A stretch of 64,000 nt of DNA. Origin: Aeromonas lacus (GTDB taxonomy: Bacteria > Pseudomonadota > Gammaproteobacteria > Enterobacterales > Aeromonadaceae). Location: NCBI RefSeq assembly GCF_000764665.1, contig NZ_JRGM01000136.1, positions 62,001 through 126,000 on the forward strand, written 5' to 3'. The translations under genes were made by a program, and so were the position numbers. The first letter of the stretch is position 1; every line of letters starts with the position of its first letter. A model generated the notes under the pieces. That model did not search any database. It was not told where the DNA came from and was given only the letters and a program-made list of their open reading frames with translations. Below are positions 2,965 to 32,658 of this stretch, in pieces.

Positions 2965-3486
2965 TCAGCGATTGCCCGGCTGGCGGATCAGGGTGATGGC
3001 GCCGTGCAGACAGGCGAGGCCGCAGGCACCGCAGCCATTGCAGGCGTCCATATTGACGTTGATGCCATCGGCAGTGGCCTTGATCGCCTGCTGGGGGCAG
3101 GCATCTTCACAAAGCAGGCAGTAGAAGCCCTGACGGGCCTGACAGCTCTCTTCAATCTGTACCCGGGTCTGCACCTGACGGCCCAGTTGCAAGTCGAGCG
3201 CACCGGTCGGACAGGCTCTGGCGCAGCTGCCGCAGTAACTGCACTGGCCGCAGGCGAGATCGAGCACCGGGGTGCCGGCAATCGGGCTCCCTTCGTACTC
3301 CTCCTGGGTGGCCGGTTTGAGCAGGCCGCGCGGGCAGGCCTTGAAACACTCGCCACAGCGGGTGCAGAGCGTGAGGTACTGGGACTCCTCGATCGCCCAC
3401 GGCGGGCGCGCTTCATGGCAAACCACTGCGGGTTTGCGCGAAGCTTGCCAACCTTGTGTCAGCCAACGGAGGAAATAATGAGTCAT
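2965..3486 (-). CDS. napF: ferredoxin-type protein NapF
   Basis: A 173-residue iron-sulfur protein of the NapF family, a cytoplasmic accessory factor for the periplasmic nitrate reductase NapA. Four cysteine clusters are visible: CxxCxxCxxxCP at Cys41-Cys51, then CGQCSYCGSCARACP, then CEDACP, and finally CNGCGACGLACLHG, consistent with several [4Fe-4S] centres. The ATG at 3486 (MTHYFLRWL) is preferred over an in-frame GTG six bases upstream because AGGGG is better spaced. No napDABC genes are within the window, so this is an isolated copy or sits apart from its operon. It converges with the NO sensor nsrR. Confidence 0.85.
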   Translation of the reverse strand: MTHYFLRWLTQGWQASRKPAVVCHEARPPWAIEESQYLTLCTRCGECFKACPRGLLKPATQEEYEGSPIAGTPVLDLACGQCSYCGSCARACPTGALDLQLGRQVQTRVQIEESCQARQGFYCLLCEDACPQQAIKATADGINVNMDACNGCGACGLACLHGAITLIRQPGNR

Positions 3487-3627
3487 GCCCACCCCTGATA
3501 CCTATTAGGGGTTAATTTTATCGAAGTTTGCGAGGGCAGGCCAGAGAATAGCAGCCGTCAGGATCGCAAGGGCTGTTGCCCTTGTGTAAGCTAGGCGGGT
3601 CTCTTTTCCGTGGTTGAATGAAAACAT

Positions 3628-3843
3628 ATGTGGTTATTTCTCTGGCGTTCGTCCCTGCTCTATATCTTTCCCCTGCTGATGTGGGGCTACTGCCGCATCA
3701 AGGGCATCGAGTTCGTCGAGCTCGATACCGGGGTCAACAGCCACAAGTGGGTGGTGCTCGCCGCCTACCTCATCTACGTGCTGCTCTGGCTGCTGGCCAA
3801 CCGCTATCTCGAACTCTTCCTGCGCCAGCGGAGCCGTAAATGA
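3628..3843 (+). CDS. small two-helix membrane protein
   Basis: A 71-residue protein with hydrophobic segments at about residues 4-21 and 43-61 and a basic C-terminus (RQRSRK). Its last bases overlap the rmuC start codon (ATGA overlap at 3840-3843), indicating translational coupling. No family is recognised. The start at 3628 lacks a strong ribosome binding site; an overlapping frame starting at 3618 is less hydrophobic and less likely. Function unknown; the coupling with RmuC is the only contextual clue. Confidence 0.6.
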   Translation: MWLFLWRSSLLYIFPLLMWGYCRIKGIEFVELDTGVNSHKWVVLAAYLIYVLLWLLANRYLELFLRQRSRK

Positions 3844-26653: not shown

Positions 26654-26682
26654 TTTCACTTTTTGCTGCTTTGCTGTACAGT
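26654..26682 (+). promoter_or_regulatory. spf promoter
   Basis: TTTCAC (26654-26659) and TACAGT (26677-26682) are spaced 17 bases apart and end seven bases before the predicted Spot 42 start at 26690. The upstream stretch is AT-rich. No convincing CRP palindrome was seen, although E. coli spf is CRP-repressed. Confidence 0.6.
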
Positions 26683-26689
26683 TGTCTGC

Positions 26690-26794
26690 GTAGGGTACAG
26701 AGGTAAGATGTTCTATCTTTCAGACCTTTTATTTCACGTAATTGAATGTGGCTGAATAGCGGCCCCGATGAGTTTCTCGTCGGGGTGTTTTTTT
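26690..26794 (+). ncRNA. spf: Spot 42 small RNA
   Basis: The first 60 bases are almost identical to E. coli Spot 42: GTAGGGTACAGAGGTAAG, then ATGTTCTATCTTTCAGACC and CACGTAATTG. Only the terminator differs: CCCCGA pairs with TCGGGG and is followed by a T run. Spot 42 is an Hfq-dependent RNA that represses carbon-use genes and is itself repressed by CRP-cAMP. In E. coli it also lies upstream of engB (yihA). About 105 nt here versus 109 nt in E. coli. Confidence 0.95.
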
Positions 26795-28753: not shown

Positions 28754-28764
28754 TGTAAGAGATC
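28754..28764 (+). promoter_or_regulatory. UvrY/SirA (GacA)-type box upstream of first Csr RNA
   Basis: TGTAAGAGATC lies about 160 bases upstream of the predicted RNA start. The known enterobacterial UvrY operator is TGTGAGAGATCTCTTACA at a similar distance. The other half is degenerate here. The ten-base core GTAAGAGATC recurs, in the matching orientation, upstream of the second Csr RNA. Confidence 0.65.
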
Positions 28765-28884
28765 CTCCATTTTCGCAGCAGGCCAAGGCTCATAGATTTG
28801 TATAAAATTTAAAATAAATGATATTTATCAATCTGTTATGCTTTTATTGCGGTTTTCTGCGGTATTGGGATGTATTCAGGTAGA

Positions 28885-28918: not shown

Positions 28919-29280
28919 AATGGATTTATCCACGGAATGGATAGCGGTTTCACAGTGGGATGCTGTGAGCACAGGATGTTTGGCATGGCGGGATGCCGTG
29001 GGTTCGCAAGAACTGGCAAGGGATTGAAAGATCAGGATGGTGACCATCTCCGGAGCGGGATGGGGTTGCGGGATGCAGGCTCCCCGGCACGATGGCAGGA
29101 TGCGGTCGGAACGGGTCAAACAGGCACACGCACATTCAGGAACGACCACAAGAAGGTCAGGATGACCATATAAAGATATGATGTGGCAACAAGTCGTCAT
29201 GGACGGGACAAAACAGACTGTTTTGCCATTCAGGATGATCCTCACACAGACATATCAAGGCAGCTTCGGCTGCCTTTTTT
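28919..29280 (+). ncRNA. CsrA-sequestering RNA, CsrB/CsrC family (first copy)
   Basis: About 362 nt with no real gene but 18 GGA triplets on the plus strand, many in CAGGATG or CGGGATG context and presented in hairpin loops. This is the hallmark of CsrB-type RNAs that sequester the translational regulator CsrA. A TTCG-loop terminator (AAGGCAGC/GCTGCC TTTTTT) closes it at 29257-29280. E. coli csrC lies in the same place, between yihA(engB) and yihI; size is like E. coli CsrB (369). An upstream UvrY/GacA-type box supports BarA/UvrY control. Whether to name it csrB or csrC is arbitrary from sequence. Confidence 0.88.
29257..29280 (+). terminator. terminator of first Csr RNA
   Basis: AAGGCAGC pairs with GCTGCCTT around a TTCG tetraloop, followed by a T run. 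Confidence 0.92.
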
Positions 29281-29497
29281 CTTATTGGGTCATTAACCCG
29301 ATCAGCCTTTCTGTGTCAAAATACCAGCAATATGCCCAGAGGATACCGATCCTGCGGTGTTCAGTGGCCCTAAAGGGCCGGATTGATGCGGGATCCTGCT
29401 GATGTTCCGGTTTCACTGTTCCCCAGAATTGCATCCCGCCGGGTGAGATCATCCCGGAGTCGGGCTCAATCCAGTTATTTTTCGGAGTTATCCATTC

Positions 29498-30531: not shown

Positions 30532-30562
30532 GCCATTGATAACAAAAAGAGAGGAAGCGAGC

Positions 30563-31936
30563 GTGCAAGCAGGACAGATTGTGTGGGATCAGGCCCTGAT
30601 CGAAAAATATAACTACAGCGGCCCGAGATATACCTCCTATCCCACGGCACTGGAGTTCAACGAGAACTTCGGTTACCCGGATTTTGTTCGCGCTGCCGGG
30701 CAGTATCCCGAGCGTCATCTTTCTCTCTACGTTCACATCCCCTTCTGCCATAAACTCTGTTACTACTGTGGCTGCAACAAGGTCATAACCCGTCATCAGC
30801 ACAAGGCTGACGAGTACCTCGACTATCTCGAACGGGAGATCAAGGCGCAGGCTCCGCTATTCAAACAGCGGCTGGTTACCCAGCTGCACTGGGGCGGTGG
30901 CACTCCTACCTATCTCAATGAAAGCCAGACCCGGCGTCTGATGGCCATGCTGCGTGAGCACTTCCATTTTGCCGATGAAGGCGAATTCAGTATCGAAGTC
31001 GATCCGCGCGAGATAGAACTTTCGATGCTGGATGTGTTGCGAGCAGTCGGTTTTAACCGTATCAGTCTCGGCGTGCAGGACTTCAACAAGGATGTGCAGG
31101 TTGCCGTAAATCGCGAGCAGGATAACGACTTCATTCGTGCCATGCTGGAACGAGCCAGAGAGCTGGGCTTTCGTTCAACCAACCTTGACCTTATCTATGG
31201 TCTGCCGCATCAGAACAGGGAGAGCTTCCACCATACGCTGGAAGAGGTGCTCAAAACAGATCCGGCGCGCCTCTCCATCTTCAACTATGCCCATCTACCC
31301 AGCCGCTTTGCTGCGCAGCGCAAGCTGAAGGAAGAGGATATGCCTGCTCCGCAGGAGAAGCTGGCCATGTTGCAGGGGACTATCGAGTTCCTTACCGGTC
31401 GCGGTTACCAGTTCATCGGCATGGATCACTTTGCCAAGCCGGATGATGAGCTGGCTGTGGCACAACGCGAAGGCAAGCTGCATCGCAACTTCCAGGGCTA
31501 TACCACCCAGGGGGATTGTGATCTGCTTGGGCTGGGCGTCTCCTCCATCAGCATGATCGGCGATGCCTATTCGCAGAATCAGAAAGAGCTCAAAACCTAT
31601 TACGCTCAGGTTGAGGAGTTGGGGCATGCGCAATGGAAAGGGTGCTCGCTGAATCAGGATGACCTGATCCGTCGTGAAGTGATCAAGCGGCTTATCTGCG
31701 ACTTTCGTTTGAACTTCGCCACCATTGAGCAGACATTTGGCTTGGATTTCAAAGAGTACTTCGCCGAGGATCTCAAGCTGCTACAGACCTTTATCGACGA
31801 TGGGCTGGTGCGTATGACGGATTCGGGGCTCGAGGTATCTTCCACAGGGCAGCTGTTGATCCGCAATATCTGCATGTGCTTCGACCTCTACCTGCGCAAC
31901 AAGGCTCGCCAGCAGCAGTTCTCTCGCGTTATATAA
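30563..31936 (+). CDS. hemN: oxygen-independent coproporphyrinogen III dehydrogenase HemN
   Basis: A 457-residue radical SAM enzyme performing the oxygen-independent decarboxylation of coproporphyrinogen III. Cys62, Cys66 and Cys69 in CHKLCYYCGC bind the [4Fe-4S] cluster, with Cys71 next to them as in E. coli. GGGTPTYL and the C-terminal LLIRNICMCFD are conserved. I chose the GTG at 30563 with GAGAGGAAG upstream, giving exactly the E. coli length and N-terminus (QIVWDQALIEKYNYSGPRY). An upstream ATT/ATG extension is not conserved. Pairs functionally with aerobic hemF at 24.4 kb. Confidence 0.96.
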   Translation: MQAGQIVWDQALIEKYNYSGPRYTSYPTALEFNENFGYPDFVRAAGQYPERHLSLYVHIPFCHKLCYYCGCNKVITRHQHKADEYLDYLEREIKAQAPLFKQRLVTQLHWGGGTPTYLNESQTRRLMAMLREHFHFADEGEFSIEVDPREIELSMLDVLRAVGFNRISLGVQDFNKDVQVAVNREQDNDFIRAMLERARELGFRSTNLDLIYGLPHQNRESFHHTLEEVLKTDPARLSIFNYAHLPSRFAAQRKLKEEDMPAPQEKLAMLQGTIEFLTGRGYQFIGMDHFAKPDDELAVAQREGKLHRNFQGYTTQGDCDLLGLGVSSISMIGDAYSQNQKELKTYYAQVEELGHAQWKGCSLNQDDLIRREVIKRLICDFRLNFATIEQTFGLDFKEYFAEDLKLLQTFIDDGLVRMTDSGLEVSSTGQLLIRNICMCFDLYLRNKARQQQFSRVI

Positions 31937-31962
31937 GTTTTTGTTTGCAGCTCAGAAAACAG

Positions 31963-31991
31963 AAAAGGGCGCCATCAGTGGCGCCCTTTTC
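31963..31991 (+). terminator. hemN terminator
   Basis: AAAAGGGCGCC (31963-31973) pairs with GGCGCCCTTTT (31980-31990) around ATCAGT. Confidence 0.9.
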
Positions 31992-32079
31992 ATATGTAGT
32001 GTGCTTGAACTGTGACTTAGGGAGGTTTTGGCAAGAAGGCGCTGCGATGAGGCAAGCAATTGCACAGTGAAACGCAGAT

Positions 32080-32353
32080 AAAAAGATGGGGGCGACTTGC
32101 GTCGCCCCCGGTAGTCGTATCGCTCTAATCCTTGAACGAAGTTGCTCCCTGCAATCCCTGACTGTTTACCTCTTCCTTTAGGTTTCCCCTTCCCAATCCT
32201 TTGGGGTGTCCTTTAGCCATCTTGGCCTGACGAGTCATCCTTTCCCGCCGCACTTTCTCCGTCCTGGGAGGTGTCCTTTGCCACGTCCTGTGACTAGTCC
32301 ATTTGCCCAACCCTGGCAGCCAGTCTTCCTGACCGACTTCATTGCGTCCGTGC
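32080..32353 (-). ncRNA. CsrA-sequestering RNA, CsrB/CsrC family (second copy)
   Basis: On the minus strand this 274-nt stretch holds 17 GGA triplets, mostly as AAGGA, CAGGA and AAGGG, spaced about every 15 bases, and ends in a perfect GGGGGCGAC/GTCGCCCCC terminator with a U tract (32109 down to 32080). A -10 box TATAGT (32366-32361) and a TTGTCG box 16 bases ahead place the start near 32353. A UvrY/GacA-type box lies about 205 bases upstream. The 76-codon frame it overlaps has low-complexity Lys/Arg/Gly content and is an artefact of the repeats. Likely redundant partner of the first copy. Confidence 0.82.
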
Positions 32354-32360
32354 ATGAGTA

Positions 32361-32388
32361 ACTATAAGGATTTTCCGAGAGGCGACAA
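32361..32388 (-). promoter_or_regulatory. promoter of second Csr RNA
   Basis: Reading the minus strand, TTGTCG, a 16-base spacer and TATAGT (complement of 32361-32366) form a plausible sigma-70 promoter with a start near 32353. Confidence 0.55.
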
Positions 32389-32553
32389 TGGCAAGTTGGA
32401 AAACGTTTTTGTGTTGATAGTTAACGAAAGCAATCTCTTTCGATTTATTTGATATAAAACATTGTGTTATTGAAATTTACTACTGTTTTTAAGACGTTAT
32501 CTTCCGATTATTTCGAGAACATTTTGAGCTTATTGCTCACATCTTTAATGGCT

Positions 32554-32563
32554 GATCTCTTAC
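32554..32563 (-). promoter_or_regulatory. UvrY/SirA (GacA)-type box upstream of second Csr RNA
   Basis: GATCTCTTAC on the plus strand (GTAAGAGATC in the orientation of the RNA) matches the right half of the known UvrY operator exactly. It lies about 205 bases upstream of the predicted RNA start. The same ten bases occur at 28755-28764 ahead of the first Csr RNA. Confidence 0.65.
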
Positions 32564-32658
32564 GCGGCATTATGGTTGCTGTGGAAACAAATATGTCGTC
32601 CTGATGGTGATGTCTTTCACCAACAGGAAAAGGGGAACTTGAGCAAGAAAAGGCGGGG

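Follow-up and report, generated by a model that had tools for sequence, protein, structure and literature searches.

A CsrB/RsmB-family small RNA gene convergent with hemN in Aeromonas lacus, one of three likely CsrA-sponge genes

Gene B and two further Csr-type loci

The DNA analysed was a 64-kb stretch of the Aeromonas lacus genome, referred to below in its full length of 64,000 nucleotides as the window. On its plus strand hemN occupies 30536-31936 (TIGR00538, 687.6 bits) and is followed by a terminator at 31962-31991. Convergent with hemN, on the minus strand, lies a small RNA gene of about 276 nt at 32079-32354, here termed gene B, the start of which was placed from its -10 element and the end of which is the T tail of its terminator. 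The Rfam model of the CsrB/RsmB family (RF00018) matches 32374-32078 of the minus strand over its full length (positions 1-356) with 88.6 bits against a cut-off of 71, while the CsrC model (RF00084) gave no match at gene B at E <= 1. The first-pass annotation had proposed a CsrB-type RNA on this strand and a covariance-model search against Rfam as a check; this score above cut-off, together with the base-pair covariation described below, bears the proposal out. Whole-genome searches of 14 control genomes with RF00018 found a match in E. coli only. The only other families above their own Rfam cut-offs in the window were one tRNA and the Spot 42 RNA, which lies at 26680-26794 on the plus strand upstream of yihA, the same place as in E. 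coli. Matches to STnc320 at 31945-32009 were below cut-off, coincide with the hemN terminator and were discarded.

Gene B was found in all 37 Aeromonas genomes, with a mean column identity of 95%, and its nearest relative, in genome G016, is 99% identical over the gene. When the 37 sequences were compared with up to 450 bp of upstream DNA, conservation clustered in an upstream box, in the promoter region and in the RNA as far as the terminator. The intrinsic terminator is as had been claimed: a stem-loop at 32088-32109 (minus strand) with a stem of nine pairs (32109-32088), eight of them G-C, which is invariant in 35 distinct sequences, followed by a T tail at 32087-32079.

A promoter scan gave a -10 element TATAGT (32361-32366, minus strand) and a weak -35 element TTGTCG (32383-32388, minus strand), a pair (32388-32361) that matches at 9 of 12 positions and fits a start near 32354. 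A -35/-10 pair at the start of the RNA had been noted before; the pair is present and its -10 block, CCTTATA, stands at the same place in 37 of 37 Aeromonas genomes, the -35 element being partly conserved, but the hexamers by themselves are no better than chance, as the scan found one such pair against 3.5 expected in shuffled sequences. Judged by conservation alone, gene B would thus have a promoter of its own. Just upstream of this promoter, not more than 90 bp from the start motif (32354-32440, minus strand), a block AACGTTTT is found in 34 of the 37 genomes.

Further upstream lies the box CGTAAGAGATCAGCCATT (32547-32564, minus strand), centred about 201 bp before the presumed start and, by sequence likeness, a UvrY/GacA-type site of the kind expected of a CsrB/RsmB gene. 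In all 37 genomes a box of the form (T/C)GT(A/G)AGAN(A/T)TNNNCC(A/G) precedes the conserved TGCACGGACGC by exactly 210 bp, and a second half-box, TGTGAG (32536-32541, minus strand), follows 23 bp nearer the gene, with NGTNAG there in 34 of 37. The text available of PMC4682653 gives TGTGAGACATTGCCGATA as the UvrY site of E. coli csrC and TGTGAGAGATCTCTTACA, centred at -183/-182, as that of csrB. Gene B is like E. coli csrB in having its box some 200 bp upstream, and in many relatives the B box (TGTGAGACATTCGCCATT and similar) is like the E. coli and Salmonella csrC box given there.

Two sponge RNAs had been counted in the earlier reading. This count, made from the window alone, fell short, since the genome has three such loci, the additional one being a longer CsrB on another contig (gene A; G000:C186:79693-79380, minus strand), which RF00018 matches over 314 nt with 122.9 bits. 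Gene A appears longer than this match: a promoter-like start and a box at the locus (L001, G000:C186) suggest an RNA of about 498 nt with 40 GGA. In G007, G019 and G024 additional partial matches lie beside gene A; these probably represent its upstream part and not separate genes. The set of A transcripts omits 7 of 30 A loci, at which the start or the end pattern was missing.

The other locus, gene C, is a GGA-rich RNA gene between yihA and yihI, on the plus strand at 28922-29282 (ends approximate), with a terminator at 29257-29276 and a UvrY-type box, recognised by the box pattern, at 28754-28771 on the same strand. With 15 GGA in 330 nt the triplet is not clearly enriched (158 of 2000 shuffles were as high), while CAGGA is (2 of 2000). 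Taken over a somewhat longer stretch, gene C has 18 GGAs, which are kept in a mean of 19.8 of 30 sequences where other triplets are kept in 13.6 (32 of 10000 random sets were as conserved). Individual GGAs range from three that are kept in 30 of 30 sequences to some that are kept in only 2. This count covers 30 genomes, those with fetched loci among the 34 in which C was matched; 28 of 30 C loci yielded a transcript. In the window genome gene C is below every Rfam cut-off (best rsmX, 21.5 bits, cut-off 56) and matches neither RF00084 nor RF00018; in seven relatives weak RF00018 matches of 22.6-26.9 bits were found at C, against the cut-off of 71.

One E. coli genome is annotated in the order polA, spf, yihA, csrC, yihI, hemN, with an Rfam CsrC match of 277.9 bits between yihA and yihI, and Salmonella csrC likewise lies between yihA and yihI according to the part of PMC2515195 available. 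With respect to yihA, yihI and hemN, gene C has the position and orientation of E. coli csrC, between yihA and yihI on the strand of yihI, with one further gene, putatively cytochrome-c-like, between yihA and C in Aeromonas. As an assignment by Rfam, CsrC was rejected, and position, GGA pattern and box alone point to csrC. Gene C is therefore taken as the positional counterpart of csrC; it has the box and a terminator, without matching RF00084 or RF00018. Gene B is unlike CsrC in that it lies outside the csrC place, and neither B nor C matches RF00084. In A. cavernicola (L107), C gave no match and yihI is preceded by a putative frame resembling a LacI-type regulator; gene B is still beside hemN there.

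Within the 4.39 Mb of the genome the box pattern GTRAGANATNNNCCAT has three occurrences, one in front of each of A, B and C, and its reversed form has none. Over the 37 genomes it occurs at 115 places, 34 of them upstream of B (37 genes), 34 upstream of A (35 genes), 27 upstream of C (34 found) and 20 elsewhere, so that 95 of the 115 lie upstream of A, B or C; 15 of the 37 genomes have exactly three sites, one per gene, and the reversed pattern was absent from all 37. Since the pattern was written from the boxes of A, B and C, matches there are expected and partly circular, and it is the rarity elsewhere that is informative. A fourth Csr gene was sought at 6 of the 20 stray sites and the idea was dropped: there were at most 10 GGA per 274 nt and no Rfam match. 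At two stray sites, L226 and L227 in A. bestiarum and A. piscicola, the box is identical to the box of gene A in those species, with no recognisable Csr RNA behind it; conserved between the two, it is possibly another UvrY target or a chance occurrence. The genome carries one csrA (PF02599, 92.4 bits, G000:C85:32867-33022), and UvrY is reported in A. dhakensis in the available text of PMC7250320. Gene B is, on this evidence, likely to be one of three CsrA-sponge genes.

Chromosomal setting of gene B

Genes B and C lie about 2.8 kb apart in the window, in agreement with the spacing given earlier, and they had been described as an unusual pair of sponges flanking yihI-DUF2489-hemN. The spacing is real; the pairing itself is less of a unit than this implied, as C sits in the E. 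coli csrC place and B is beside hemN (within about 1.5 kb) in only 11 of the 37 Aeromonas genomes. Ten of the 11 come from the group of A. veronii, A. sobria, A. enteropelogenes and the window genome, and the other is A. cavernicola. Within the A. veronii group, 10 of 12 genomes have B beside hemN, the exceptions being G030 and G035. In four other genomes with loci read (L103, L104, L105, L119), B is instead beside a chemotaxis-receptor gene and mglC. In G030 other sequence seems to follow B. In G035 (L050) a putative insertion-sequence-like stretch lies just past the B terminator and a ParA-like gene matches in four pieces, so that this genome seems to have been rearranged again at the 3' end of B.

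Two closed genomes, one paired (G034) and one unpaired (G036), were compared. In G034 the hemN-terminated block runs up to 1562218 and B follows from 1562379; after B comes its arc-gene side in inverted order, and mglC is 440 kb away. A simple origin-spanning inversion was rejected as the origin of the junction. It would have put the sequence that comes after hemN in unpaired genomes next to mglC in the paired ones, but this sequence was found about 23 kb away from C, on C's strand, and what comes after B in unpaired genomes is joined to a different place. The other ends thus misfit a single inversion, and the history involves several breaks. The B-hemN junction is best explained as derived by rearrangement, with the unpaired state tentatively taken as ancestral; this polarity is drawn from the commoner arrangement and from a weakly supported tree of 32 of the 37 genomes, in which the 12-genome group has a support of 0.15.

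Other arrangements occur elsewhere. In A. diversa, A. simiae and A. sp. RU39B (L100-L102), A and B stand in tandem between rsmJ and yhhN, about 250 bp apart and each with its own box. Outside Aeromonas, RF00018 matched at E <= 0.001 in all 38 genomes from four further genera of the same family; 34 of the 38 were above cut-off, and there were often two or three copies per genome. Among the 38 loci read there, which come from 21 of the 38 genomes, rsmD was within the fetched stretch of a CsrB copy in 13 of the 21 genomes; the same is true of 10 of 30 Aeromonas A loci, some of which end early at contig ends.

That 10 of the 12 A. veronii-group genomes and A. cavernicola keep B beside hemN might suggest that selection keeps B and C close together around yihI-DUF2489-hemN, perhaps to couple the two sponges locally or to link their dosage. 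We consider this unlikely, because the arrangement is absent from 26 of the 37 genomes, G030 and G035 of the same group included, because A. cavernicola has B beside hemN yet shows no C match, and because B and C each have their own box and terminator. The best reading of the pairing of B and C is that a lineage-specific rearrangement of the chromosome produced it, and not that function has preserved it. A bolder combination of ideas is as a whole improbable. In it the tight UvrY-type box would mark little beyond the three Csr promoters, and the short, slowly changing B would have moved repeatedly, with breakpoints at its 3' end; in relatives of A. veronii this would have placed it facing hemN, and read-through there might link the sponge to the oxygen-regulated synthesis of haem.

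GGA motifs, folding and conservation of the gene B RNA

The minus strand from 32353 to 32080 was recounted and has the 17 GGA in 274 nt reported for it, as well as 9 AGGA and 11 ANGGA; the opposite strand has one GGA. Dinucleotide shuffles have a mean of 11.3 GGA (sd 2.1), and 17 of 2000 reach 17, a moderate excess; the excess of ANGGA is stronger, with a shuffle mean of 3.3 and none of 2000 reaching 11, and that of CAGGA, present three times, is not clear (104 of 2000). Among 274-nt windows on both strands of the 64 kb, which have on average 3.9 GGA (sd 2.1), the B locus is the richest with 18 and the second richest lies on the plus strand at 28.9-29.2 kb with 15. Fifteen of the 17 GGA triplets are unchanged in 37 of 37 genomes and the remaining two in 31 and 36. 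Their mean conservation is 36.6 of 37 genomes against 31.3 for all triplets and 31.1 for the non-GGA ones, and 4 of 10000 random position sets were as conserved.

As a single sequence, gene B folds more stably than its shuffles (z -2.5; 2 of 100 shuffles equally stable). The consensus fold of the 37 sequences has 79 pairs, and in eight of these both partners have changed. Counted on 35 distinct rows, the eight compare with 1.8 such pairs in shuffles, none of 500 being as high, and with 0 to 3 when the pairing partners were slid. In the 35 distinct rows 99.5% of the cells of the consensus structure are paired, a figure biased towards the structure, since this was predicted from the same sequences, and the changes on both sides are the better sign. 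Folding had been proposed as a way of seeing whether the GGAs lie in loops. They are mostly unpaired, with a mean unpaired probability of 0.70 against 0.42 for all non-GGA triplets and 0.21 for GGC, GGG and GGT; placement in loops is partial, as in the consensus fold 9 of the 17 are fully unpaired and 7 lie wholly within hairpin loops.

With a longer, higher-scoring CsrB in the same genome (122.9 bits), gene B could be imagined as a decaying spare copy of gene A devoid of a function of its own. Its retention in 37 of 37 genomes at the identity given above, its nearly invariant GGAs and the persistence of covariation all speak against decay, and we regard this as very improbable.

An ATG-started, Lys/Gly/Arg-rich frame of 76 codons is present at 32125-32355 of the minus strand (32355-32125), and the reading that B is a small protein gene with GGAs reflecting codons is scarcely credible and was ruled out, as the frame has a start codon and is open in only 2 of 37 genomes, its length is not divisible by three in 25 of 37, the start-codon column is CTG in 19, ATG in 16 and TTG in 2, and variable sites fall evenly over the codon positions (21/23/24). 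The protein-type substitution pattern that was sought as a possible refutation of the RNA is accordingly absent, and the frame is the by-product of the repeats that it had been taken for. In E. coli NZ_CP104371.1 (L222), a frameshifted hypothetical-protein pseudogene is annotated at 3497-3663, inside csrC (Rfam match 3471-3724), and is a by-product frame like this one.

Relation to known Csr systems and proposed role

Gene B is very probably a genuine CsrA-sponge RNA gene and an ordinary member of its family. Like the CsrB/RsmB RNAs (RF00018, E. coli csrB), it has many GGAs in hairpin loops and linkers and ends in an intrinsic terminator; unlike them it is shorter, 276 nt with 17 GGA against 356 model positions, belongs to a three-locus set and has a genomic place that varies between Aeromonas species.

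V. cholerae has three partly non-redundant sponges, CsrB, CsrC and CsrD, under one response regulator, with 28, 23 and 23 GGA, according to the text available of PMC6550530, against 17 in Aeromonas B, 18 in C and 40 in A. Multiple csrB copies in Vibrio are explained by duplication and relocation in the accessible part of PMC6262261. Aeromonas is like V. cholerae in having three GGA-rich, probable sponges, presumably under one response regulator, and like Vibrio in its multiple copies. Where that part of PMC6262261 names Aeromonas salmonicida, once only and while dealing with Aliivibrio copies, Aliivibrio salmonicida seems to have been meant. Within the genus, A. veronii CsrB and CsrC are reported to exceed their stationary-phase level in rich medium more than 50-fold when the bacteria are inside the leech crop (PMC5061737, in the text available, citing Bomar and Graf 2012); they are given there without coordinates, so that they are not matchable to A, B or C. 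CsrB and CsrC are also named among the ncRNAs of A. salmonicida in the part of PMC8780938 available. In the literature covered, outside which most subscription journals lie, we found no map of the three Aeromonas Csr RNA genes and no description of the B-hemN junction. The kind of gene is well known; the particular Aeromonas map may be new.

By analogy with the E. coli and Vibrio systems, gene B would be transcribed from its own promoter, presumably on binding of UvrY (GacA/VarA type) about 200 bp upstream. The RNA would fold into short hairpins and single-stranded stretches presenting some 17 GGA motifs, and CsrA dimers would bind these and be drawn off their mRNA targets, so that CsrA-repressed genes would be released. 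As A, B and C carry the same box, they should respond together to BarA/UvrY. We hold with high confidence the joint reading that gene B (32354-32079, minus strand) is a CsrB/RsmB-family small RNA that would titrate CsrA, would be activated by UvrY and lies in a rearranged location.

What emerges is a likely three-sponge Csr system in which all three genes have the same promoter box, in a genus of opportunists that affect fish and humans, and with three sponges behind one box their redundancy is testable gene by gene. The closeness of two Csr RNA genes in this genome seems to follow from rearrangement, which suggests a warning against reading function into such pairs.
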